Part shown: positions 28,035-41,873 of the stretch, piece after piece
Layout: each line of letters starts with the position of its first letter
Position numbering within the stretch: position 1 is the stretch's first letter
Source of the DNA: an uncultured Clostridia bacterium
GTDB lineage: Bacteria; Bacillota; Clostridia; Christensenellales; UBA1242
NCBI GenBank assembly: GCA_944380265.1
Contig: CALWGY010000002.1
Coordinates: 67,556-131,555 of the forward strand
DNA: 64,000 bases
Direction: 5' to 3'
Translations under genes and position numbers: made by a program
Notes under the pieces: generated by a model
What the model saw: only the letters and a program-made list of their open reading frames with translations
Database searches by the model: none
Told to the model about the DNA's origin: nothing

Positions 28035-28436
28035 ATGCAAAAAGTAACAAACTCATCAATAAAAATTAATAAGTTAAAACTTTGTGCACAACTAATTTTG
28101 TTGGGTATTGTTTTCTTTTTTGTGTTTGACAAGGGTATTATTAGAGAATTTAAATTAGTTTTTGAAATGTTAGATATGCGTAACATGGATAAAGTAATAA
28201 CATATTTTATTTTGCCGATTAAAACTTTTTATGATTTATCACAACTAGTAACATTTACTTATCTTGTTTTAAAAGTTGTTTTATGTGCAGTAATTGTGCC
28301 ATTATTAATTTTGGCACTTATAAATTCAATAAAATTCTTACATATTGAAAAAAACAAAAACAACTTTTCTTTAAAAAATTTTAGTGCAAAAAGTTTTGCA
28401 CCGGTTTACATTGTTCAACAAAAATTTTTATGTTAA
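28035..28436 (+). CDS. Small membrane protein, unknown
   Basis: A 133-residue protein with two strong hydrophobic segments (about residues 15-34 and 74-100) separated by a charged loop (REFKLVFEMLDMRNMDKV), and a basic C-terminal tail. No family recognised. The ATG is preceded by TTAGGGATTTATAA, a modest ribosome site. It ends just before a hairpin, supporting a real transcript. Confidence 0.6.
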   Translation: MQKVTNSSIKINKLKLCAQLILLGIVFFFVFDKGIIREFKLVFEMLDMRNMDKVITYFILPIKTFYDLSQLVTFTYLVLKVVLCAVIVPLLILALINSIKFLHIEKNKNNFSLKNFSAKSFAPVYIVQQKFLC

Positions 28437-28772: not shown

Positions 28773-31079
28773 GTGTTGCTAGGTCAAATTTTAAGTTTGG
28801 TAGTAATTGCTACTTCGCTTATTACAACATATTTAATATTAAAACACAAAAAAATTGAAATATCAAACACAGCGAAAAAAATTGTGTCTGGTGTTTTGGC
28901 TGTTGTTTTTGTGTTTAGGTTCATGCTTGGGCAAGATGCTTTAAAAAATATTTTTGCATTAAACAATTCACCAATTGAATCTAATGCGTTAACAGCAATA
29001 AGTTTAATTTTAAACTGGGCATTTTATTCGGTTGTTTTGCTTGTTATTTTGTATCCATTTTTTAAAAACTCACAGTTTGCAAGCATAATTAAGTACTACG
29101 GAACAATTGTAACACTGCTTTGTGCGGGATTTATATATTATTTGTCAACAGGCATTGTGGGTGTTAATGCATATAGCGGATTTCAAATTAGAACACTTTT
29201 AATGGGTGTTGAAATTGGAATTACTCTTGCATACTGCTTTGTTGTGTTTATGGAAAACAACAAATTCAAAATTAAAAAGTCTGATTTGTGGGGTGCTGCA
29301 TATATTGCTGGAATGTTGCTTGCCACCATGCCACCATACATGCTTGAAGCATTGTTTGGCAATTTTAGAATTTGGTTTGACTTAAAAGAACTTGCACCAG
29401 CGCACAGAGTTATTTTATATTTGTCAATTTTAATTCCAATTGCACTTTATTTGCTTTTAAAAAACAAAAACAAAGAAATGGTTCGTGGAATTTTGCTTTA
29501 CATAAGTTTAGGAACACTTTTGTCGTTCAGTGTTAGTTACAAATTTGAAAACTTTTTACATGTTACAAGTTGGCCATTCCATTTGTGTAACACTGCAATG
29601 TATATAATTCCACTATGTTTAATTTTTAAATGGGAAAAACTTTTTTACTTTACTTACTTTATAAATGTTTTGGGTGCATTTTTAGCAATGGCAATGCCAA
29701 ATTATGCAGAAGGGTTAAATTTGTTCTCAACTAGAATTGTTAATTTCTATATAAACCATTACATTGCTTTCTTTATGCCGTTGTTAATGGTGTCACTTAA
29801 AGTTTATGACCGACCAAAACTTAAACAGTTTAAGTATTCCATGATTGGTTTTGGAATTTACTTTGTGTTGGTTTTAATTTTAAATGCATGGTTTTCAAAT
29901 TATGGTACAGTTGATTATTTCTTCCTTAATTCCGATTTTATTGCAGAAAAACTTGGCACATGGGCAGAAGATTTAAGAAACATTGTTTGGTCATTTAACA
30001 TTAATGATTTAAGCTTTACATTCTATCCGTTATATCAATTCTTATTTTTCTTGGTTTATGTTGCATTGGGTGCAGCAATGTGGTTTGTTTACGAACAAGC
30101 ATATGCATTTGCCGATATGATGGTTGATATAAATGCAAGAAACAAAAAAATAAAAGCAGATTTATTAGCATTGCAAGTTGCATCTGCTAAAAAAAGTGAG
30201 GAAGAAATGATTAACACAGAAACTAAATTAGAATTAATAGATTTTTCAAAGCGTTATGGGTCAAGTAAAGTTTATGCTGTTCAAAATGCAAACTTGGAAA
30301 TTCACGGTGGCGAAATATTTGGGTTTTTAGGCCATAACGGTGCAGGTAAAAGCACAATTATTAAAAGCATTGTTGGAATTCAACCAATAACAAGTGGAAC
30401 AATTAAAGTTTGTGGCTATGATGTTGATAAACAACCTGTTTTGGCAAAAAAACAAATTGGATTTGTTCCAGATCATTATGCACTTTATGAAAAACTTACC
30501 GGACGTGAATATGTTAACTATATTGCAGATTTATATGAAGTTTCAAAAGAAGAAAGAAATGAACGTATTGAAAATTATGTTAAACTTTTTGAATTAGAAA
30601 ACGCTTTTGATAATCAAATTAAAACATATTCTCATGGAATGAAACAAAAAATAACAATAATGTCGGCACTTGTTCATAATCCAAAAGTTTGGATTTTGGA
30701 CGAACCATTAACAGGTTTGGACCCTAACAGCATTTACCAAGTTAAAGAATGTATGAAAGCTCATGCAAAAGCAGGAAACATTGTGTTTTTCAGCAGTCAC
30801 ATTATTGATGTTGTTGAAAGCATTTGTGATAGAATTGCTGTTATTAAAAAAGGTAAAATTTTAACCACTAAAACAATGAAAGAAATTGAACAAGAATGTG
30901 GACTTGAAGAATTTTACTTAAAAATTACTAGTCAAGATGTTAAGGCAAAATTAGTTGGCGAAAAAGAAGAAAATAGTATTACTAATGAAGAAACAAATGA
31001 TAATATTTCAAAAGTAAAAAAGGCAAACAAGAAAAAAGAAGTCGCAAAAAAATCTAAAACAAAGGTAGATAAAAAATGA
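28773..31079 (+). CDS. Fusion of a YwaF/TIGR02206-like membrane domain with an ABC ATPase
   Basis: The 768-residue protein has about ten membrane helices in residues 1-450. The segment SWPFHLCNTAMYIIPLC followed by FINVLGAFLAMAMPN is like the P-x-H-L-C core of YwaF/TMEM164-type proteins. Residues 480-700 are a complete ABC ATPase: GHNGAGKST (Walker A, near 520), YSHGMKQK (signature), VWILDEPLTGLDP (Walker B) and the switch His in FFSSHI. The tail is Lys/Glu-rich. This arrangement is unusual: ATPase and multi-TM domain are normally separate genes. It starts at GTG after AAGGAG and overlaps the permease gene by four bases. Export is inferred from the ABC-2-like partner. Confidence 0.85.
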   Translation: MLLGQILSLVVIATSLITTYLILKHKKIEISNTAKKIVSGVLAVVFVFRFMLGQDALKNIFALNNSPIESNALTAISLILNWAFYSVVLLVILYPFFKNSQFASIIKYYGTIVTLLCAGFIYYLSTGIVGVNAYSGFQIRTLLMGVEIGITLAYCFVVFMENNKFKIKKSDLWGAAYIAGMLLATMPPYMLEALFGNFRIWFDLKELAPAHRVILYLSILIPIALYLLLKNKNKEMVRGILLYISLGTLLSFSVSYKFENFLHVTSWPFHLCNTAMYIIPLCLIFKWEKLFYFTYFINVLGAFLAMAMPNYAEGLNLFSTRIVNFYINHYIAFFMPLLMVSLKVYDRPKLKQFKYSMIGFGIYFVLVLILNAWFSNYGTVDYFFLNSDFIAEKLGTWAEDLRNIVWSFNINDLSFTFYPLYQFLFFLVYVALGAAMWFVYEQAYAFADMMVDINARNKKIKADLLALQVASAKKSEEEMINTETKLELIDFSKRYGSSKVYAVQNANLEIHGGEIFGFLGHNGAGKSTIIKSIVGIQPITSGTIKVCGYDVDKQPVLAKKQIGFVPDHYALYEKLTGREYVNYIADLYEVSKEERNERIENYVKLFELENAFDNQIKTYSHGMKQKITIMSALVHNPKVWILDEPLTGLDPNSIYQVKECMKAHAKAGNIVFFSSHIIDVVESICDRIAVIKKGKILTTKTMKEIEQECGLEEFYLKITSQDVKAKLVGEKEENSITNEETNDNISKVKKANKKKEVAKKSKTKVDKK

Positions 31080-32722
31080 AAACATTAATGCCTTTAATTG
31101 CGATGCAGTTAAAAGATAAATTAGATTTTAGCTTTCAAAAAAGTAATTGGAAACAAATATTATTCAAAACAATATTCTTTTTCATTAAATTTTTTGCCAT
31201 TACAGCTGTTATCTACGTTGGATTTATGGTTTTATCTATATTGCGACTAATAGATTTAGCTTCAGGAATTCCAGATAAATTTTTAGGTGTTTTGTTTACA
31301 ATAATGATAATACTATCAATTTTAACATGCACTATTGGTTTGGTAAAATCACTATATTATGCAAAAGATAACCAAGTGTTATTAACAATGCCAACAAACA
31401 GGGTTAACATTTTCTTTTCAAAATTGATTGTTTATTATATTTATGAATTATTTAGAAATTTAACATTTATTTTGCCATTATTTATAGCGTTTGGAATGGT
31501 TAATGCTTATCAATTTTATTATTATATTTGGGTATTAATTGGCTTATTGTTTGTTACTGCAATTCCGGTTTCTATTGGCGCATTACTTTCAATTCCTGCA
31601 ATGTATGTAAGCAACTTTTTTAGAAATTTTAAGGTATTACAATATTTAGTTATTGTGTTGCTAATTGCTTTGGGAATTTGGGCTGTTGTTGCAGTAATCA
31701 ATTTAATTCCAACAAACTTCAACTTAATTGAAACTTGGGGAACAACTTTTTGGGAAATACAAAGCTTTTTTGAAAAATTTCAATTAATGTTTATTCCATT
31801 TTATTGGTTAATGGAAAGTGTTGTGGGAACTCGTTATGGTGTTTCACACACAATGTTTAATGCTGAACAATGGTTTTGCATTTTAGGTGTTTTAGGCACA
31901 ATTATTGTTTTATTAGGTGTTTGTTATTTAGTTGTTAGACCATTATTTTTCCATATTGCAAGTTCACCATTTGAATATAAAAAATCAATAATTAAAAAAT
32001 CAAAATCAAATGTGAAACATAGTTCTTTTGTTTCAGGATTTAAAAAAGAAATTTTGTTAAATTTAAGAACCCCAGAAAAATTATATTCATTAATTGGAAT
32101 TGCCATTTTAATGCCTATTGCAATTTTATTGTTAAACAAAATTTTTAATGCTATGGACACAAGGTTAACTGGGGCTTATATGACTATTGCATTTAATGTT
32201 TTAATGATAATGTTGTTTGCACTTTCTTCTAATGCTAGCATGGCAAAAATTTATAGTGAAGAAGGAAATTCTGTTTATTTAATTAAAACAAATCCGCAAA
32301 AATATTTAAAAACATTACTAGTTAAATTAGTTCCAAATGCAATAGTTATGACAATTTCAATTTTAGCATCGGTAATTATTTATAGTGAATTTGCAGGAAA
32401 TCTGGTTAATATTCCGCTATTATTTATAAGTATTGAAGGTTTTTATTTAGGGCACTTATTATGGAGTGCTGAATTAGACATTATGAATCCTCAAACAGCA
32501 CAATATGCAACAACAGGCACTCATACTAACAATCCAAACGAAGTAAAATCAACAATTTATGCTTTCTTATTATCCATTTTCTTAGCTTTTGTAACATTCT
32601 TTATTATTGGCGAAGGTGAAATGGTTTTCTGGATTAAAGCAATGATTATAGGAATTATTTTCTTATTAATAAGAATTTATTTCTATTACATTAAAGTAAA
32701 AGTTTATTATAAGGAGAAGTAA
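31076..32722 (+). CDS. ABC-2-type exporter permease subunit
   Basis: The 548-residue membrane protein has about 12-14 hydrophobic segments. It begins with a cytoplasmic amphipathic stretch (MQLKDKLDFSFQKSNWKQ), carries an L-L-T-M-P motif around residue 105 seen in large ABC exporter permeases, and has a middle soluble loop near residues 300-330. It overlaps the ATPase fusion by four bases and is followed after one base by the anchored Ig-like gene, so it is the translationally coupled membrane partner of the ATPase. The transported compound is unknown. Confidence 0.82.
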   Translation: MKTLMPLIAMQLKDKLDFSFQKSNWKQILFKTIFFFIKFFAITAVIYVGFMVLSILRLIDLASGIPDKFLGVLFTIMIILSILTCTIGLVKSLYYAKDNQVLLTMPTNRVNIFFSKLIVYYIYELFRNLTFILPLFIAFGMVNAYQFYYYIWVLIGLLFVTAIPVSIGALLSIPAMYVSNFFRNFKVLQYLVIVLLIALGIWAVVAVINLIPTNFNLIETWGTTFWEIQSFFEKFQLMFIPFYWLMESVVGTRYGVSHTMFNAEQWFCILGVLGTIIVLLGVCYLVVRPLFFHIASSPFEYKKSIIKKSKSNVKHSSFVSGFKKEILLNLRTPEKLYSLIGIAILMPIAILLLNKIFNAMDTRLTGAYMTIAFNVLMIMLFALSSNASMAKIYSEEGNSVYLIKTNPQKYLKTLLVKLVPNAIVMTISILASVIIYSEFAGNLVNIPLLFISIEGFYLGHLLWSAELDIMNPQTAQYATTGTHTNNPNEVKSTIYAFLLSIFLAFVTFFIIGEGEMVFWIKAMIIGIIFLLIRIYFYYIKVKVYYKEK

Positions 32723-32723
32723 T

Positions 32724-33173
32724 ATGAAAAAGTCAACTTTAATTATAATTTTGATAATTTATGTTGCTTCAATTGCAATAATTAACTTTTTTGGAATGTC
32801 TGTTAAATTATATGATGAAGTAATTAATGTTACAGCTGTTGAATGTATTAATAAAACCGATAAAAACACAGAAGTTATTGATAACGGCGAACGAAAAATT
32901 TTAAAGGTGAAATTTACTGAACCTGCAAACGCAACTGATTTAACAGGAACAATGTTGCAACTGCAATGGAGAGTGCTTCCAGACAATGCAACAGTTAAAG
33001 ATGTTCAGTTTGTTTATAACACACAAAACACTCGTGTTGAATTTTATGAGGACGAGAAAGGCAGAAAAACAGGTTTAATGTTGTTTTCTGGACCAACAAT
33101 GTTAGATGTTAGAATTATGTCAACCGATGGTTTAAGAAAATATGCCGATGTTTTAGTGTGGGTTTATGCTTAA
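32724..33173 (+). CDS. Membrane-anchored protein with an Ig-like (BIG2-type) domain
   Basis: A 149-residue protein with an N-terminal membrane helix (residues 5-25) and an outside domain of beta strands. The end, DVRIMSTDGLRKYADVLVWV, resembles the last strands of bacterial group-2 Ig-like domains. No cysteine lipobox is present, so it stays as a signal-anchored protein. AAGGAG precedes the ATG. As third gene of the ABC operon it may interact with the exporter or the lipoprotein encoded next. Confidence 0.72.
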   Translation: MKKSTLIIILIIYVASIAIINFFGMSVKLYDEVINVTAVECINKTDKNTEVIDNGERKILKVKFTEPANATDLTGTMLQLQWRVLPDNATVKDVQFVYNTQNTRVEFYEDEKGRKTGLMLFSGPTMLDVRIMSTDGLRKYADVLVWVYA

Positions 33174-33226
33174 AATGGTATAACGCAATTTAATTGCTTT
33201 ATATAAATAAAAATAAGGAGATAAAA

Positions 33227-35515
33227 ATGAGAAAATTAACAAAATTTGCTAGTGCAGTAGTTGTTTGTTTATTTTCAGCAATATTGTTAGTTGCTTGTGG
33301 CGGAACAAAAATTGAATCTGCTTACATTAAAACTGGAACAATGGCAACAACAATAATTAAAGGTGAAACTTTAGACACTTCAAAAGCCATTGCTGTTGTT
33401 ACTTATAGTGATGACAAAACTAAAGAAGTTCCTAATTCTGAATTAACCTTTGGAACAATAGACACTTCAACAACAGGCACAAAAAACCTAGAAGTAACTT
33501 ATGGCGACTTTAAATTTTATGTTCAAATTAAAGTTGTTGCAAGTGAAGCAGATGTTAACACAATAACATCATTTTCAAGTGATTTGTTAACTGACTTTGC
33601 TGCAAACTCATCAGCTAAAGAAAACAAACAAGAAGAATTTTTCCAATTAAATAAAACTCATCTTGTTGGTGATGACAATGCTTTAGATTTTAGAATTAAT
33701 GCAAAAGGTATTAATGCAGATGGCGAATTAGTTGAAGGTTTAACAAAAGTTAGAACAACAATTAAAATTGAAGAAATTTCTGGTTCAACATCAAATCCTG
33801 TTTACACAGAATTAACTGGCTCAAATTTAAGTGCCAAAGTTGATTACACTGATACAGAAATGTCAACCATCGATTTCTCAAACAATGCTATTAATAAGCA
33901 ATTTAGAATTACTGTTAGTGCAGTAAATTATGACCCAACAATGTTTGATGAACAAAACCCAGCAAGTTTTACTGCTGTTGTTAAAGTTGTTGATGGTTAC
34001 AATGTTTATAATGCTCAACAACTTTCTGTTATGGATAATGGAAACAGAGATAATAGTTGGACATCATTAAAAGAACAATGGGGTTTAACAGGAATTAACC
34101 CAAATGCTGTTGTTTTGCAATCTTCAATTAAAATAACAGATAACGATATTCCTGCAAGACATTTTTACACACAAGAAGAAGTTAATGGACTTTCAGCTGA
34201 TATAAAAAACAAAACCAATCAACCAATTGTTGGAAGTATGAAAGATGAACACACTGAAATTTATTACAGATTAGTTGCAAATGGAGAATCATTTAATTTC
34301 TATGGTAACTATTTTGATATTGATGTTGCAGAAGTTTCAAGAAGTGTTATCGATATTGATAATAACGGTGTTAGGGTTGCAGAAGGTGAAGGTGATGCTT
34401 CATATATAACAACTCACATACCATTAATGAGAATTTATGGTGGAAAATATGAAAATACAAAATTAACACAAGTTAACTTAGAGTCAGGTGAAAACACTAA
34501 TGGCGAAGTTAATTTAGTTGACACATACTTTATTGGTAATGGCGAAAGAAGTGCAAACCCACTAGCATCTGGTGGTATGATTTTGCTTAAAACTGCAGGT
34601 GTTAACTTTGAAGCAAACAACACAATTCACAAAAATTTCTTTATTGGCTATTTTGCTGAATATGGTTACAATTTAGATACAACTGGTGTAACAGACCCAG
34701 AACAAATTAAAAACATTAAAAATGATGGTAATCCAGACAAAAACAATGAATATAGATTTATTGATTGTAAAGGTTACAATGCTTATAACACTCTTTACTA
34801 TTTATGGGGTGCAAGCAACGTTTACATGGAAAATAACGAAATGATTGGTGCTGGTGGTCCTGCTATTATTGCCGACCATGTAACAAGCGTCAATGATTTC
34901 AAAAAACAAACTGGTGAAGGTGGTTTCCCAACCAACTTAAACATTGTTAATTTAAAAAATTCAAAAATAGAATCGTGGGTTAATGGATATGAACCTTGGT
35001 TTGCAACATATGACGGGGCTTCTCAACAATTTGCAAGTTTAACAACAGTAAATACATTAATTTATGACAAAATGGGTTATGGTTTTGTAAAATCAATTGA
35101 TGGCGTTGATGGTTTTATGAATTTAATTATTGTTCATAAATGGGGAATAAAGAAATTTAATGAAGACAAAGCAATGACAAGAGGAACAACAAATATTTTT
35201 GATAGTGTTAAAGATTACAATGCTTATATGGAAACAGGTAAACTAGCCAACGGTTCAACTTATTATGGTTATAATAAATCTATGAGTTATGCTGGTGATA
35301 GTTATGCATACGAATCAAATGCTGTTAAAGCTTTCTTACAATATGCACAAGGTGGTGCACCAGTTGGATTTGAAGCTAGCACAAGTGGACATATTGCAAT
35401 TCCAACAGGTGAAACTGCAGCAATGCCATTAGGAAATAAAATTACAGATGGTAAACAATTAAATATTTATATGGCTAATGGTTTTGGAGCTGTTGTTGAT
35501 TTATTTAAAAAATAA
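33227..35515 (+). CDS. Large surface lipoprotein with Ig-like and beta-helix-like parts
   Basis: The 762-residue product has a signal peptide and lipobox (LLVACGG; Cys near residue 24). Residues 30-110 form an Ig-like domain (T-x-x-x-K-G-E-T-L-D-T-S-K-A-I-A-V-V-T-Y). Later, residues 300-560 alternate short strands with Asn/Gly turns (MRIYGGKYENT, VYMENNEMIGAGGPAIIADH), as in right-handed parallel beta-helix proteins. No catalytic motif is evident. AAGGAG fixes the start; an upstream in-frame ATG at 33194 lacks one. Last gene of the ABC operon: probably a binding or processing partner of the exporter (inference). Confidence 0.8.
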   Translation: MRKLTKFASAVVVCLFSAILLVACGGTKIESAYIKTGTMATTIIKGETLDTSKAIAVVTYSDDKTKEVPNSELTFGTIDTSTTGTKNLEVTYGDFKFYVQIKVVASEADVNTITSFSSDLLTDFAANSSAKENKQEEFFQLNKTHLVGDDNALDFRINAKGINADGELVEGLTKVRTTIKIEEISGSTSNPVYTELTGSNLSAKVDYTDTEMSTIDFSNNAINKQFRITVSAVNYDPTMFDEQNPASFTAVVKVVDGYNVYNAQQLSVMDNGNRDNSWTSLKEQWGLTGINPNAVVLQSSIKITDNDIPARHFYTQEEVNGLSADIKNKTNQPIVGSMKDEHTEIYYRLVANGESFNFYGNYFDIDVAEVSRSVIDIDNNGVRVAEGEGDASYITTHIPLMRIYGGKYENTKLTQVNLESGENTNGEVNLVDTYFIGNGERSANPLASGGMILLKTAGVNFEANNTIHKNFFIGYFAEYGYNLDTTGVTDPEQIKNIKNDGNPDKNNEYRFIDCKGYNAYNTLYYLWGASNVYMENNEMIGAGGPAIIADHVTSVNDFKKQTGEGGFPTNLNIVNLKNSKIESWVNGYEPWFATYDGASQQFASLTTVNTLIYDKMGYGFVKSIDGVDGFMNLIIVHKWGIKKFNEDKAMTRGTTNIFDSVKDYNAYMETGKLANGSTYYGYNKSMSYAGDSYAYESNAVKAFLQYAQGGAPVGFEASTSGHIAIPTGETAAMPLGNKITDGKQLNIYMANGFGAVVDLFKK

Positions 35516-35602
35516 AAATTATTTTGCTTTTTAAAATATGAAATTTTTAAATTCTTTATATTTTAAAGCAATAATTAAAATTAAAAATATTAAATTTTAA
35601 TT

Positions 35603-35636
35603 AAAAAAAGAACGAAATTAATTCGTTCTTTTTTTA
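35603..35636. terminator. Bidirectional terminator between the lipoprotein and giant protein genes
   Basis: A7-GAACGAA-ATTAA-TTCGTTC-T7, flanked on both sides by A/T runs, at the convergent end of both genes. Confidence 0.88.
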
Positions 35637-35651
35637 TTTTTAAAATTATTT

Positions 35652-38600
35652 TTAATGGCAATTTTCTTTGCAACTTGTGCCAAACACACCCCAATAATGG
35701 AAGTATGTTGAAGTTGTGTATTTAGCATAAAGTGTAATATCACCAGTTATTGGTTCGCCGTTGTATGGTTTTGTTAATTCTGGGTCTAAGTACCAACCTG
35801 CAAAGGTATATTTTGTGTGTGTGCACTCTCTACCTTTAAATGCAACATAACTTCCAGAAACTTTATCATCGCATTTATGTGGAACATAAGCACTTAAATC
35901 AACGCTTGTGTTTTCAGCAATGGTTAAGTCGGAATAACTTCCGTTGCCACCATTTAAGTTAAATTTTATGGTGTAATATTTTGTTACAATTGTTTCAGTT
36001 AAATTCCATTTAGCATAAAGGGTTGTGTCTTTTCGTGGCATAACACTTGAAACAAATTTTGTGTTTTCTTCCAAACCAGGTGAAGTGTACCAGCCAGCAA
36101 ATTCATAAACATATTTTGTGTTGTTTTGAACATCGTTAATGGTTAAGTTTTCGGTGTAGGTTGGAACAACAATTGCCGAGCCCGGTGCACCCGAAATGTT
36201 GTTTAGTTCACTTCCACCATTTTCTTCAAAGGCAATTGTGTAAATAACTTCATCTGCTTTTGTCCATTCACCATCATATGCTTCCCAACTTGCGCCTTCA
36301 CTGTATGTGTAAGAAGAAATGTAGGAATACATACTATTAAAGTCCAAAGTTTTGCCAATGTTAATTAATTTTAGGTTATCGCTTTCCAAAGTTAACTTAA
36401 ACACATCGGCAAGTGGCATATACATGTTAAATGTTGCATTGCCAACATAGTTTTTGTTGTTTGTTTGTTCGTTGTTAACAACGCCCAAACCAATTGCCAT
36501 GGTTCCCATTTTTGGATCGTTTGTTAGTTCTTGCATGTTAAGTTCAATTTTAAAGTTTTTAGAATCATTAACAACAAACGAATTAATAACGTTACCCAAG
36601 TTTGGTGTGTGACCTTCACTTAGTGCAAGTGAATCCTTAATTGCTTTCATAATATCGTCAGTAAATCCAATTGCATATTGAACATATTTTAGTGGGTCAG
36701 CAATCAATTCTTCAAGTGATACTTTAAGTTTCTTTTCGTAAATTCTGTTGCTACTTGCAAACACAGGAACTTCTTCATGTCTGTAAAAATATACAAACTC
36801 ATCTTTATAGTAAACAGTTAAAATTCTGTTTAAGCCTGCATAAATTCCACTAACAGTGTTTCCAAATTTGTATGGAGCATCATCATTAACGCCAGGAACA
36901 ACTGGAATTGCACCAACTGTTGCCATAATTTCAGGTTTTCTGTTTTCATCTAATTTAATTTTAACATTAAGTGGAACATTCCAATTAATATCAATTCCAA
37001 TTAATTCTCCATTAATGTCCAAACTTCCATCAATTTCGTAGTAGTTAAGTTCTGCGGTGTTAATTATTGCTTTAATAAGTTCGTTAGCACCCGACAAATC
37101 AATGTAACCATCATCGGAAACTCCTTTAACTCCTTTAAATGTTTCAAAATTAATATTTAAGTTAAAGTGTTCATTGTTTGTAACACCAGTGTAAATGTTG
37201 CTTAATTCAACACCACTTAGGCAGTTGTTTGTTGTGTTTATTTGAACAACCATGTTCTTTGCATTTGGGTTGTTAGAAATTTGTGTGCCATCAAGTGTTA
37301 TTTTTAGGTTGTTGTTAGTAAATTCAATGTTTTTAACAATTTTTAACATACTTAATGGATTGTTAACATCAAACGAAGGAATTAAATTTGAAACTGAATC
37401 AAAGTTAATGTTGTTTAAGTCGTTTGCAGCATCTTCCAAAATTGGAATTAAATTTGGGTCAACTCCAATCAAATTCAAAATTATTGCAAGCAAACTCTTC
37501 AAGTCTTCTTCACAAATTTTTAATTTTAGGTTGTTGTAGTTAACAAACAAATATTTGTTCCAGTAGTTTATGTCAAAGCCAATGTTATATTTTCCAGTTA
37601 AAGTTGCCTTTCCGTTTAATAGCAAGTTGTTTTTAATGTCTAAATCTAAATTAACTAGTGCATTGGTTGTAACTTTTTCGCCGTCATAAACTTCTGCATT
37701 TGCAAACAAACTAAATTGTTTTGTTTTAACAAATTCGGTTGTGTTTTCAATTATGTTTGTTAATGTGCAGTAGTGAACATAATCGGCTTCCGCCAAACTT
37801 TCAAATTCAACATTTCCAAATTTAACAAAGTTTATGTTTGCAAACAATTTTGTGTGGTTCAAAATTATTTGAGCAAAGTTTTCATTGTAACTTAAAACAA
37901 GTTCTTGTGGTGTTGTGGTTAGGTCTTCGTTTATAAAGTCATATAAGTCAATCATCAAACCATTTTCGGTTTTGTAAATTTGTTTAATGTTTTCGCCAAA
38001 AGCAAATTCGCCAAACAAATTAACAATGTTGTTTAAGTCTATTCCGCCCAAATCAATTGGCTCACTTAAATTAAAGGTGGTGTTAATCCAGTTAACTAGT
38101 TCCGAAATTTCGGTGGTTTTTATGTAAAGTTTTAAGTCGCTAATTTGTGCATAAATTGTGCCGTTTAAAATTGTTAGATTTATGTTTATTCCATAAAATT
38201 CAATGCTTGCACTTAGTTTTAAGTTGTTAACATCGTTAAAGTCAACTTTCAAACTGTTAACGGTTACTTCTTGTTTTGTTTCATCCAAATCAAATTTAAT
38301 TGTTCCGTTAAGTTCAAATGCCTTTGCATTAATTAAATTTGCAATTGGTTTAATTAATGTTGTTAGGTCATCTAAATTTGTTGTGTAATCGCTTTCATTA
38401 AATTCAATGTTTGTTTCAGCACCTAGTGTTGTGTTTATGTTAACATTTATTCCTTCAAATTGTGCCGTTATGTTTTTAAGTTCGTTAAGCTTGTTAAACT
38501 CAACTGTTGCAGCAATGGTTTTTCCGTTAATTGCAAAGTTAACATTAAAACCATAGCCCAAGTTTGTTTCAAATTTTTTAAATTTTGAAATGTAAATTTT

Positions 38601-41600
38601 TATGTTGCTTGTGTCAATTTTTGTGTTAATTTGAGTGTTGAAATTTAAGTTTATTTGTTTAATTAAACTTTCAAGATTGTTTAAATCATATTGTGCTTTA
38701 AGCCCGTCAATGTTTGCATAAATTGTGTTGTTGCTAAAAATTATTTCAATTGTTTTATTTAAAACATTTGTTGCAAGTTTAATTTGTAAATCATTTTCAA
38801 AATTAACTTGTGCGTAAACTGGCAAGTTAAAGTTTTCACTAATATTAATTTCGCCATTTAGTTCAAGTTGCTTGTTTTGTAAATTTTTAAGGTTTGTTTT
38901 AACCAAATTTACAATATATTCAATGTTTTCGTATGCCGATGTGTCAATAACAGGCATTAAAACATCGTTTGCAAATTTTGTTAAATCAAGTTTTGCTTTA
39001 ACATCTGTGTTATTAATGTTGATGGTTTTTATTGTGTCATTAAACAACAATTCAACATCTGTGTTAAACAAGTTTAGTTTTAAGTTTGTGTTTGTTGCAC
39101 TTAAAATTTTTATGTCGCCAAATGATACCAAATTTAAAATGCTATTTGCATCAGGTGTTAAATTAATGTTTAGCTTTTCGCAAATCAAGCTAATTATGTT
39201 TTCAAGTTCCGAAAAACTTGCACAAACATTAACATTTCCAACAGTTGCATAAATTGCATTATCAAACACATTTAGTTTAATGTTCAAACCAAAAATGTTT
39301 GTTGAAGCCCAAATTTGAAGTGGATTTAATGAAACTTTGTATTCCACCAAAATTGGTTTGTTGTTAACAACCACATTTATGTTGCCTGCAAATTTGTTTG
39401 CATTAATTGTGTTTAACAAACTTTCTGCAAAAGGTAAAAGTTTTGAAATGTTAAAGTAATCGTTTAAAATGGTTACGTCTTGTTTTTTGTTTGTTAGTTG
39501 TGCATAAACGCTTAGGTCATTGTAACTTGCAAGTAAGTCTTTGTTTTCAAAATTAATTAAAATTTGTGCTAAATCATTTTTAATTGTTAAAGTGTTATTT
39601 AAAAGTGTTAATGTTAAACCTTTCAAAATTGAATTGTCGCCTTGCAAATCAAAATTTTTGGTAATGGTTTCAAGGGCATTTGAAACATCTAAGTTAAAAT
39701 GTTTTTTAACAAAATCTAACACTTTATCCACATCGTTTATGTTAAACATTGCGTTAAAGCCATCAAGTTCGGCATAAATAACGCCATTTAAAAGTTTAAC
39801 AGAAACTTGTTTTCCTAAAACTGTGGTGTTAAGGCTTGCACTTAAACCATCAAAAATGTTGTTTCCGTTAGGTTCAAAGTTAACAAATCCATAAATTTCA
39901 AAGTCACCATAAGTTATGTTAACATCGGCATAAAACTTTTTGGCTTTAATAAAGTTTATAATTTGTTCACTGTTTTCAATAACGTTTGAAACCGAAACAT
40001 ATTTTGTTTTATCAAAGTCAAAGTTTCCTTGTTCGTTGTTTGAAGTTAGTGTTGCATTAACATTAAAGTTGTTTCCGCTAACACTAACAAAGTTAACATA
40101 GTTGTTATAACCAAAGTTTAGTTTTAATTTTTCTAAAATTTCAATTTCCAGTCCGGCATCGGTTTTTGTTATTTTTGAAATCAACAAACTTTGTTGTGTT
40201 AAAATGTTTGAAACAATGTTCTTAACATCATCTACTGAAATTTGTGGTAAATCTAAGTTTAAATTTTCTTTAATAGTTTTAATAAGTTTGTTAATGTCAC
40301 TCAAACTGCATGTTAAGTAAACTTCCGAAACTTGAACATAAACATTTTCACCAACAATAACAACTGATACTGGAATGTTATAAATTTGTGTTTCAAGTTT
40401 TAGTTTTAATTCATTTAACAAGTCTAGTTCGTAGTTAATGTTTAAATTTATGTTGTTAACACTTAAATTAATTGTTCCAAAGTGATGTTTTAATTTTATG
40501 GTGTTTAAAATTGAGTTTGCTAGTGGTAAAACATCGTTTAAGTTTGCATAAGTTTCTTCTGATTTTGTTAGATTAATTTTTTGTGGGGTAGTGGATTCAA
40601 GTTTTGCAAAAATGTTTGAACCTTCAAAAGTTATGTTTTTAAATTCGTGATCCACAAATTCAAATTTAATTTCGCCAATGTTTGTTATGCTTAATGAGTA
40701 AACGCCGTTTTCGTAGTTAAATTTTTCAAGTATGCCCAAATCAATTTTTGAAATGTCAAAATCATTCAAATCAAAATTTAAATTTTCTAGGTTTGCAGTG
40801 TTTTTAGAAATGGCAACCAAAAGCTCACTTATTTGGTCAATTGGAATGTTTATTCCAAAATGATTTTTTAAAAGTTCGGCAATTTCGCTTACACTATTTA
40901 AATCAAATTTTGCAAACAAGTTGCCAAATTCAATGTAAATAACATTGTCAATTGCAAAAACCTGCAATTTTTCATTTAAAATGTTTGTTTCAAATTTTGC
41001 ACTGTAATTTGTTAAATCACAACTCAAAATTCCTTCAAAGTTAAAGTTGTTATAATTAATTTTTGCAGTTAATCCAATTTGATTGTTTTTTGTGAAATTA
41101 ATTAATCCTTCCACCAAATTTAAAACATGTGTAACATTAATAAATTCTTGTTCTGGTTTACCTACTTCCAAATCTTCTGGGTATGTGGCAGTAACTTGAA
41201 CACTAAGTTCTGTTCCATCAATGTTAACTGCAGGCACATCAATTGATTTAATTGAATAGTTTAGGTCGCAAACAATGGTTATGTTTCCAACAAAAGGAAG
41301 TTCAATTGTTAATGTTGTTTCGGTGTTTGTTTTTTCTTCTTTTATGCCATCAAACATTGAAAGCAAACTGTTTAAGTCTAAGTTTTCTAGGTCAAAACCA
41401 AGGTTTGGCATTTCAACATTTAACAAATTTAAAATTTGTGTTACCGATTGCATTAAGTTTTCGGTTTCAATTTTATAATTTCCGTTAAGCAAACTTAAAT
41501 ATAGTTCGCCATTTAAAAATGTTATGTTAACAGGAATTTCGGTTTCATTAATTTTAACATTTAAAGCACCTTGTGCGGCAATGTTTTGAAGACCGTTTTC

Positions 41601-41873
41601 CATGTTAAGCAAAACATTTGCACCAATTAAAATGTTTTGGCTTTGTGTTTTAATTTGAGCATTTGCATTTATGTTCATGCCGTCAAGCGTTGAAAAATTA
41701 TCAATTATGTAAGTTATTGGGGAAGTTACTTGGCTTTGGTTTCCGTTATCAACATTTGTTGATTGGTTGGAAGCACCTGTTGGGTTGGAAATAAGAACCA
41801 CACCCAGTGCAGTTAAAAATGTTATTGCAATGTATGTTAATAAATACATTAAAAATCTTTTAATTTTTGTCAT
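35652..41873 (-). CDS. Giant exported repeat protein (2073 aa)
   Basis: Residues 7-30 form a signal/anchor helix without a lipobox; everything after lies outside. From about residue 50 to 1870 there are roughly nine degenerate repeats of 165-290 residues, starting near 50, 246, 441, 623, 804, 975, 1163, 1363 and 1589. Each has an opening helix (L-x-x-x-I-E-x-x-x-x-I-I-N-x-I-K-x-K), a run of amphipathic strands, a core strand of the type V-x-L-L-N-G-V-I-Y-A-E-L, and a second helix. The last 190 residues hold two InlB/Flg_new-type repeats (FAGWYTSPGLEEN...TTLYAKW and FAGWYLDPELTKP...ITLYAKY). The strand pattern recalls LppX/LolA-like half-barrels, but no match is certain. Function unknown; surface-exposed. 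Confidence 0.85.
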   Translation of the reverse strand: MTKIKRFLMYLLTYIAITFLTALGVVLISNPTGASNQSTNVDNGNQSQVTSPITYIIDNFSTLDGMNINANAQIKTQSQNILIGANVLLNMENGLQNIAAQGALNVKINETEIPVNITFLNGELYLSLLNGNYKIETENLMQSVTQILNLLNVEMPNLGFDLENLDLNSLLSMFDGIKEEKTNTETTLTIELPFVGNITIVCDLNYSIKSIDVPAVNIDGTELSVQVTATYPEDLEVGKPEQEFINVTHVLNLVEGLINFTKNNQIGLTAKINYNNFNFEGILSCDLTNYSAKFETNILNEKLQVFAIDNVIYIEFGNLFAKFDLNSVSEIAELLKNHFGINIPIDQISELLVAISKNTANLENLNFDLNDFDISKIDLGILEKFNYENGVYSLSITNIGEIKFEFVDHEFKNITFEGSNIFAKLESTTPQKINLTKSEETYANLNDVLPLANSILNTIKLKHHFGTINLSVNNINLNINYELDLLNELKLKLETQIYNIPVSVVIVGENVYVQVSEVYLTCSLSDINKLIKTIKENLNLDLPQISVDDVKNIVSNILTQQSLLISKITKTDAGLEIEILEKLKLNFGYNNYVNFVSVSGNNFNVNATLTSNNEQGNFDFDKTKYVSVSNVIENSEQIINFIKAKKFYADVNITYGDFEIYGFVNFEPNGNNIFDGLSASLNTTVLGKQVSVKLLNGVIYAELDGFNAMFNINDVDKVLDFVKKHFNLDVSNALETITKNFDLQGDNSILKGLTLTLLNNTLTIKNDLAQILINFENKDLLASYNDLSVYAQLTNKKQDVTILNDYFNISKLLPFAESLLNTINANKFAGNINVVVNNKPILVEYKVSLNPLQIWASTNIFGLNIKLNVFDNAIYATVGNVNVCASFSELENIISLICEKLNINLTPDANSILNLVSFGDIKILSATNTNLKLNLFNTDVELLFNDTIKTININNTDVKAKLDLTKFANDVLMPVIDTSAYENIEYIVNLVKTNLKNLQNKQLELNGEINISENFNLPVYAQVNFENDLQIKLATNVLNKTIEIIFSNNTIYANIDGLKAQYDLNNLESLIKQINLNFNTQINTKIDTSNIKIYISKFKKFETNLGYGFNVNFAINGKTIAATVEFNKLNELKNITAQFEGINVNINTTLGAETNIEFNESDYTTNLDDLTTLIKPIANLINAKAFELNGTIKFDLDETKQEVTVNSLKVDFNDVNNLKLSASIEFYGININLTILNGTIYAQISDLKLYIKTTEISELVNWINTTFNLSEPIDLGGIDLNNIVNLFGEFAFGENIKQIYKTENGLMIDLYDFINEDLTTTPQELVLSYNENFAQIILNHTKLFANINFVKFGNVEFESLAEADYVHYCTLTNIIENTTEFVKTKQFSLFANAEVYDGEKVTTNALVNLDLDIKNNLLLNGKATLTGKYNIGFDINYWNKYLFVNYNNLKLKICEEDLKSLLAIILNLIGVDPNLIPILEDAANDLNNINFDSVSNLIPSFDVNNPLSMLKIVKNIEFTNNNLKITLDGTQISNNPNAKNMVVQINTTNNCLSGVELSNIYTGVTNNEHFNLNINFETFKGVKGVSDDGYIDLSGANELIKAIINTAELNYYEIDGSLDINGELIGIDINWNVPLNVKIKLDENRKPEIMATVGAIPVVPGVNDDAPYKFGNTVSGIYAGLNRILTVYYKDEFVYFYRHEEVPVFASSNRIYEKKLKVSLEELIADPLKYVQYAIGFTDDIMKAIKDSLALSEGHTPNLGNVINSFVVNDSKNFKIELNMQELTNDPKMGTMAIGLGVVNNEQTNNKNYVGNATFNMYMPLADVFKLTLESDNLKLINIGKTLDFNSMYSYISSYTYSEGASWEAYDGEWTKADEVIYTIAFEENGGSELNNISGAPGSAIVVPTYTENLTINDVQNNTKYVYEFAGWYTSPGLEENTKFVSSVMPRKDTTLYAKWNLTETIVTKYYTIKFNLNGGNGSYSDLTIAENTSVDLSAYVPHKCDDKVSGSYVAFKGRECTHTKYTFAGWYLDPELTKPYNGEPITGDITLYAKYTTSTYFHYWGVFGTSCKENCH

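Follow-up and report, generated by a model that had tools for sequence, protein, structure and literature searches.

How may an ABC transporter and a membrane enzyme be linked when they are encoded as a single polypeptide? This question is raised by a 64,000-nucleotide stretch of DNA (hereafter, the window) from an uncultured Clostridia bacterium, which contains four consecutive genes, A to D, the first encoding a membrane domain of the TMEM164/YwaF type fused to an ABC ATPase. The initial annotation described the locus as an export system of unusual composition, overlooking that the membrane domain keeps a Cys/His pair in common with a family of lipid acyltransferases; in view of this pair, the locus is better read as an exporter combined with a probable enzyme than as an odd exporter.

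Layout, conservation and origin of the fused operon

The list of open reading frames and their translations place the four genes on the + strand in one operon. Gene A (28773-31079, +; 768 aa, GTG start) includes a membrane domain (residues 1-478; 28773-30206, +), composed of six N-terminal transmembrane (TM) helices and the TMEM164/YwaF (ATGY) domain, and an ABC ATPase domain (residues 479-768; 30207-31079, +). The following genes encode an ABC-2-like permease (B; 31076-32722, +; 548 aa), a short protein with an N-terminal TM anchor (C; 32724-33173, +; 149 aa) and a lipoprotein with Ig domains and a parallel beta-helix (D; 33227-35515, +; 762 aa). The spacing of 1-4 bases proposed at first holds for A and B, which overlap by 4 bases, and for B and C, separated by 1 base, but not for C and D, which are 53 bases apart. 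The best start for D is the ATG at 33227, preceded by an AGGAG-type ribosome site, and a terminator-like hairpin with a T tail (35602-35636, +), found by consensus scan only, would close the operon. A 133-aa open reading frame of the two-helix membrane type located upstream of A (28035-28436, +) is outside the module and is shared by few of its closest relatives. On the opposite side and convergent to the operon, 35652-41873 (-) encodes a secreted-looking protein of 2073 aa with many similar repeats and C-terminal Listeria-Bacteroides repeats, for which a long match (55% identity) was found only in L028, a locus from a metagenome-assembled genome (MAG) of the same genus.

The fusion recurs in independent genomes. 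Of 98 genomes belonging to the same family, about 40 contain a match spanning both halves of A, nearly all as one open frame of at least 700 aa, and a contig scan of public genomes added 80 further fused loci from MAGs labeled as Clostridia, Bacilli, Erysipelotrichales, Oscillospiraceae, Christensenella and Anaeroplasma. The A-B-C-D order is likewise found in independent genomes: B lies directly downstream of A on the same strand in all the loci with enough sequence (97 of 97), and in the two loci without B the sequence stops soon after A. Neither of the outcomes that the initial annotation named as contrary to it, a fusion confined to this genome or a gene order shared with no relative, was thus observed. 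The A, B, C and D families are present in 81, 80, 72 and 67 of 82 loci, respectively, and the next recurring neighbor family in only 8, so that the module is discrete and self-contained. That the fusion or the operon represents an artefact of assembly or gene calling is hardly credible, considering that these genomes derive from many projects and that the fused ATPases form a single clade. The distribution of the module is patchy: among the genomes examined it occurs in 2 of 291 from the class, in 1 of 299 from the phylum and in 13 of 295 from the phylum to which the Anaeroplasma-labeled MAG belongs; it is carried by many small-genome gut bacteria, and no match to it was obtained in viral, plasmid and phage collections.

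Relatives in which these components are not fused were also found. In two members of the family, L141 (same genus) and L142, the membrane domain and the ATPase are encoded by separate adjacent genes, and B, C and an Ig/beta-helix protein similar to D come next, which makes five genes; the split-form membrane domain matches PF14808 with 46.8 bits and the D-like protein aligns with D with an hhalign E of 2e-6. Other relatives (L143-L151) have only the ATPase and B, without a YwaF domain, and several of these pairs occur near a large lipoprotein or signal-bearing protein without Pfam matches above cut-off. In the ATPase tree the fused forms constitute one clade (support 100/96), apart from the split and the domain-less forms, and taken together these relationships indicate an ABC core that is complete by itself, with the YwaF domain as an accessory. 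The fusion probably joined neighboring genes once. Divergence of A, B and D is correlated (r 0.85-0.90), which is consistent with joint evolution; shared descent alone would give the same result.

Membrane domain and ATPase of A, and permease B

The membrane domain of A belongs to the TMEM164/YwaF (ATGY) superfamily by profile, Cys/His pair and fold, as its resemblance to YwaF/TMEM164 had suggested. The Pfam profile PF14808 (TMEM164), which also gives a detection in B. subtilis, matches residues 210-425 with 74 bits (cut-off 25). The AlphaFold2 model of residues 1-478 (mean pLDDT 92) contains 13 TM helices instead of the approximately ten counted originally. When this model was compared with solved structures by VIA-align, TMEM164 with its substrate (9lw1_A) was the top match with a Z of 9.7, a moderate value for a helical protein (rmsd 3.6, 187 residues), and the next one scored 5.2. 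Foldseek returned no confident match to the membrane model and the sequence search of PDB with this domain gave nothing useful, TMEM164 thus surfacing by structure only. By eye, the six N-terminal helices could pass for a second, degenerate copy of the ATGY domain; the hhalign comparison covered only 44 columns with an E of about 0.006-0.009, and such duplication is not claimed.

In the alignment of 77 fused sequences the residues that never change are His211, Arg212, Tyr216, His270, Cys272, Asn298, His329 and a few others, and Cys272 and His329 are the sole invariant columns when the fused domain is compared with eight stand-alone YwaF proteins. The density of Lys plus Arg is 0.25 in the predicted inner loops vs 0.055 in the outer ones, with a clean alternation that locates the N-terminus outside and the ATPase inside. 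Cys272 and His211-Arg212 are located at the starts of helices 9 and 7, respectively, and His329 in the outer half of helix 11; considering the loop charges and the cytosolic ATPase, these residues are predicted to cluster at the extracytoplasmic face. The VIA-align register (model residue 233 = chain residue 85) would put positions 272 and 329 near the catalytic residues of TMEM164, which we take to be C123 and H181, a lead for relating both pairs.

The host genome (G000) encodes five further stand-alone TMEM164/YwaF proteins (L130 and L132-L135; C9:21685, C8:39967, C8:40970, C1:22566 and C7:3485), which adds up to six matches with the fusion. Only 17 of the 299 genomes of the phylum sample, host included, have TMEM164/YwaF matches, and six is an unusual expansion of the family for a genome of 1.2 Mb.

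The ATPase domain is complete. Pfam ABC_tran matches residues 504-646 with 101 bits, Walker A and B, the signature and the H-loop are all present with catalytic motifs intact, and the motifs GHNGAGKST, YSHGMKQ, LDEP and SSHIID are conserved in 94 homologues. DrrA and GldA are the nearest NCBIfam families and the best PDB relatives are ABCA phospholipid transporters, whose lead over single-domain proteins is overstated since ABCA has two ATPase domains and their scores add. The permease, already described as separate and ABC-2-like, has 11-14 hydrophobic segments and matches PF16949 (ABC_tran_2) with 45.6 bits (cut-off 25.7); comparison of its two halves by hhalign gave an E of 0.0085 over 58 columns, which does not establish statistically that they are homologous. 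A defence or phage origin was rejected, the generic ATPase being all that PADLOC and PHROGs recognized.

Outside partners C and D

Protein C had been considered an anchored Ig-like protein. The anchor was confirmed (TM segment at residues 6-24), and for the small outer domain a probable Ig-like nature is hinted at by a weak, sub-threshold match to Big_7 in Pfam.

The description of D as a 762-residue lipoprotein with a beta-helix was sustained in both respects. A signal peptide with a lipobox (LVAC, residues 21-24) follows the ATG start at 33227, and the lipobox is present in nearly all of 66 homologues, and the host genome encodes Lgt (196 bits), which indicates that lipoproteins are made. 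The N-terminal part carries a Big_3 Ig domain (Pfam) and Ig-like domains that vary in number among homologues. In four loci (L069, L071, L083 and L087) Listeria-Bacteroides (Flg_new) repeats occur in the D homologue or directly upstream, from which the lipoprotein stalk appears to have been swapped between lineages. The AlphaFold2 model (mean pLDDT 85) shows a parallel beta-helix and its best structural matches, with Z 12-15, are solved parallel beta-helices of polysaccharide lyases, alginate epimerase/lyase, polygalacturonases and phage tailspikes; Foldseek matches were weak by E-value and the sequence comparison of D with PDB gave nothing useful. The beta-helix also resembles those of adhesins, and non-enzymes with this fold include PfbA and the LH3 capsid protein. 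No invariant catalytic acid/base was detected in the alignment of D homologues, the best candidates being Asp340 and Glu589 (~93% conserved) and the invariant residues being Gly, Asn, Pro, Trp and Phe, thus D may not be an enzyme. Mean column identity in the homologue alignments is 17% for D vs 36% for the membrane domain of A; this much lower conservation fits an exposed surface protein.

Possible function and relation to known systems

Characterized ATGY members are acyltransferases that act on lipoproteins (LhaT) or on lyso-ether-phospholipids (TMEM164) (PMC12345273). LhaT acetylates lipoproteins at the extracytoplasmic face (PMC12345273) and TMEM164 shifts an acyl chain between phospholipids (PMC12345273; PMC10474074). 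In the acetylation of B. subtilis lipoproteins, the step that carries the donor across the membrane is still open (PMC12345273).

The preferred reading, to which we give a little less than even confidence, is that of a four-gene surface module in which an ABC-2-type exporter is joined to an outward-facing Cys/His acyltransferase for lipids or lipoproteins. The exporter in the cell membrane would consist of B and the ATPase half of A, judging from the families to which they belong and the intact motifs, and the membrane half of A would be an ATGY acyltransferase whose cluster of His211, Arg212, His270, Cys272 and His329 opens extracytoplasmically. At the expense of ATP, the exporter would carry a lipid, or a molecule linked to one, to the outer leaflet or lift it from there, and the attached domain would load an acyl group on Cys272 and hand it to a surface acceptor; the membrane-anchored C and the lipoprotein D, with its carbohydrate-enzyme-like beta-helix, may bind, position or receive the product outside. 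What argues for an exporter-coupled extracytoplasmic acyltransferase is that Cys272 and His329 are common to the stand-alone relatives and that the predicted topology places them at the outer face. As biosynthetic genes do not accompany the module, it probably acts on one of the ordinary lipids of the membrane or on its own lipoprotein instead of a dedicated capsule sugar. A search of the host genome for PcrB and LhaT (DUF1405) gave no match to DUF1405 and one partial match to PcrB below the cut-off, which argues against the known extracellular acetyl-donor route. A more specific version, less likely than not although with a substantial chance, is a flippase-acyltransferase of a new type: ATP would serve to place a lipid, as donor or as acceptor, in the outer leaflet, where the same polypeptide that contains the ATPase would transfer the acyl group. 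If true, no separate donor pathway would be needed for acyl groups to arrive at acceptors on the surface.

A point that counts against the acyltransferase reading is the existence of ATPase-permease pairs without a YwaF domain, which makes the enzyme dispensable for the core transporter. The moderate Z to TMEM164 and the Foldseek result, the failure to find PcrB and LhaT at their cut-offs and the lack of an invariant acid/base in D count against it too. The existence of pairs without the YwaF domain also favors an ordinary ABC-2 exporter, with this domain as a non-catalytic membrane scaffold or a lipid-binding regulator of the ATPase, and the six extra N-terminal helices, which have no assigned role, could be accommodated there as well. 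This explanation is the less likely one, as Cys272, His329, His211 and Arg212 are invariant in all the fused sequences while most other positions vary, and the retention of the catalytic pair common to stand-alone enzymes would be unexpected for a pure scaffold.

The resemblance of the D beta-helix to polysaccharide lyases, alginate epimerase/lyase, polygalacturonases and tailspikes (Z 12-15) would agree with export and tailoring of a glycan, where A and B export a polysaccharide, free or linked to a lipid, which the YwaF domain would acylate on the outside and D would trim, epimerise or bind. Such a role seems improbable: glycosyltransferases or other glycan genes do not recur beside the module in the 82 loci, D lacks an invariant catalytic acid/base and shares its fold with the non-enzymes mentioned above, and the module is also present in the MAG labeled as Anaeroplasma, a genus that has no cell wall. 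It is slightly more improbable that D itself is the client, the ABC pair acting on it after Sec (extraction, release or folding) in a manner similar to LolCDE or MacB, with the YwaF domain modifying or recognizing its lipidated N-terminus. D is encoded in the operon and is a lipoprotein in nearly all homologues, other ATPase-permease pairs of the branch also lie near a lipoprotein or large signal-bearing protein, and with LhaT there is an example of an ATGY enzyme capable of modifying the N-termini of lipoproteins; however, ABC-2 permeases have a design unrelated to that of LolCDE or MacB, and an outer membrane is not expected in these Bacillota.

Regarded as an exporter-coupled acyltransferase, the module combines parts that are known separately. 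The domain of A resembles TMEM164/YwaF proteins in PF14808, predicted fold, invariant Cys and His and a 7-helix core, but the members described are stand-alone, whereas in A it sits between six extra helices and an ABC ATPase. LhaT (YpjA), the lipoprotein N-acetyltransferase of B. subtilis, is of the same ATGY superfamily as A (PMC12345273) and works at the outer face, where the Cys/His cluster of A is predicted to open, and would need a lipid donor from inside; unlike A, it is neither fused to nor encoded with an ABC transporter as described (PMC12345273). The ABC-2 or type V exporters (DrrAB, GldA and the ABCA lipid extruders) are similar in having an ATPase of the DrrA/GldA/ABCA group and a multi-helix PF16949 permease, to which the module adds an enzyme-like membrane domain on the ATPase and the outside partners C and D. 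The C-terminal part of D has the fold of parallel beta-helix surface proteins (polysaccharide lyases, tailspikes, PfbA) and differs from them in being lipid-anchored and ABC-linked, with variable Ig-like N-terminal repeats and no invariant acid/base. The suggestion that this composition had not been described agrees with the literature searched, which covers subscription journals only to a small extent: no paper in it treats YwaF together with an ABC transporter, and as far as searched the combination is undescribed.

For acylation outside the cell, the acyl donor has to be present across the membrane, and a conserved fusion between an ABC ATPase and an ATGY acyltransferase domain would provide direct genetic evidence for a single machine that can combine transport with acyl transfer. 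It would also assign a function to YwaF-type proteins, on which the literature searched holds almost nothing, and to a surface system of many small-genome gut bacteria.

The locus has a close counterpart in the MAG of the same genus. When positions 28800-35800 of the window were compared with L028:2116-9300, the DNA from about 30000 to 35600 was mostly 95-100% identical, with a few patches of 88-89%, and identity was 59-76% in both flanks and in the first part of the membrane domain encoded by A. This sharply mosaic pattern suggests either a recent exchange of the ATPase-B-C-D segment between species, with a breakpoint inside A, or a chimeric MAG contig.
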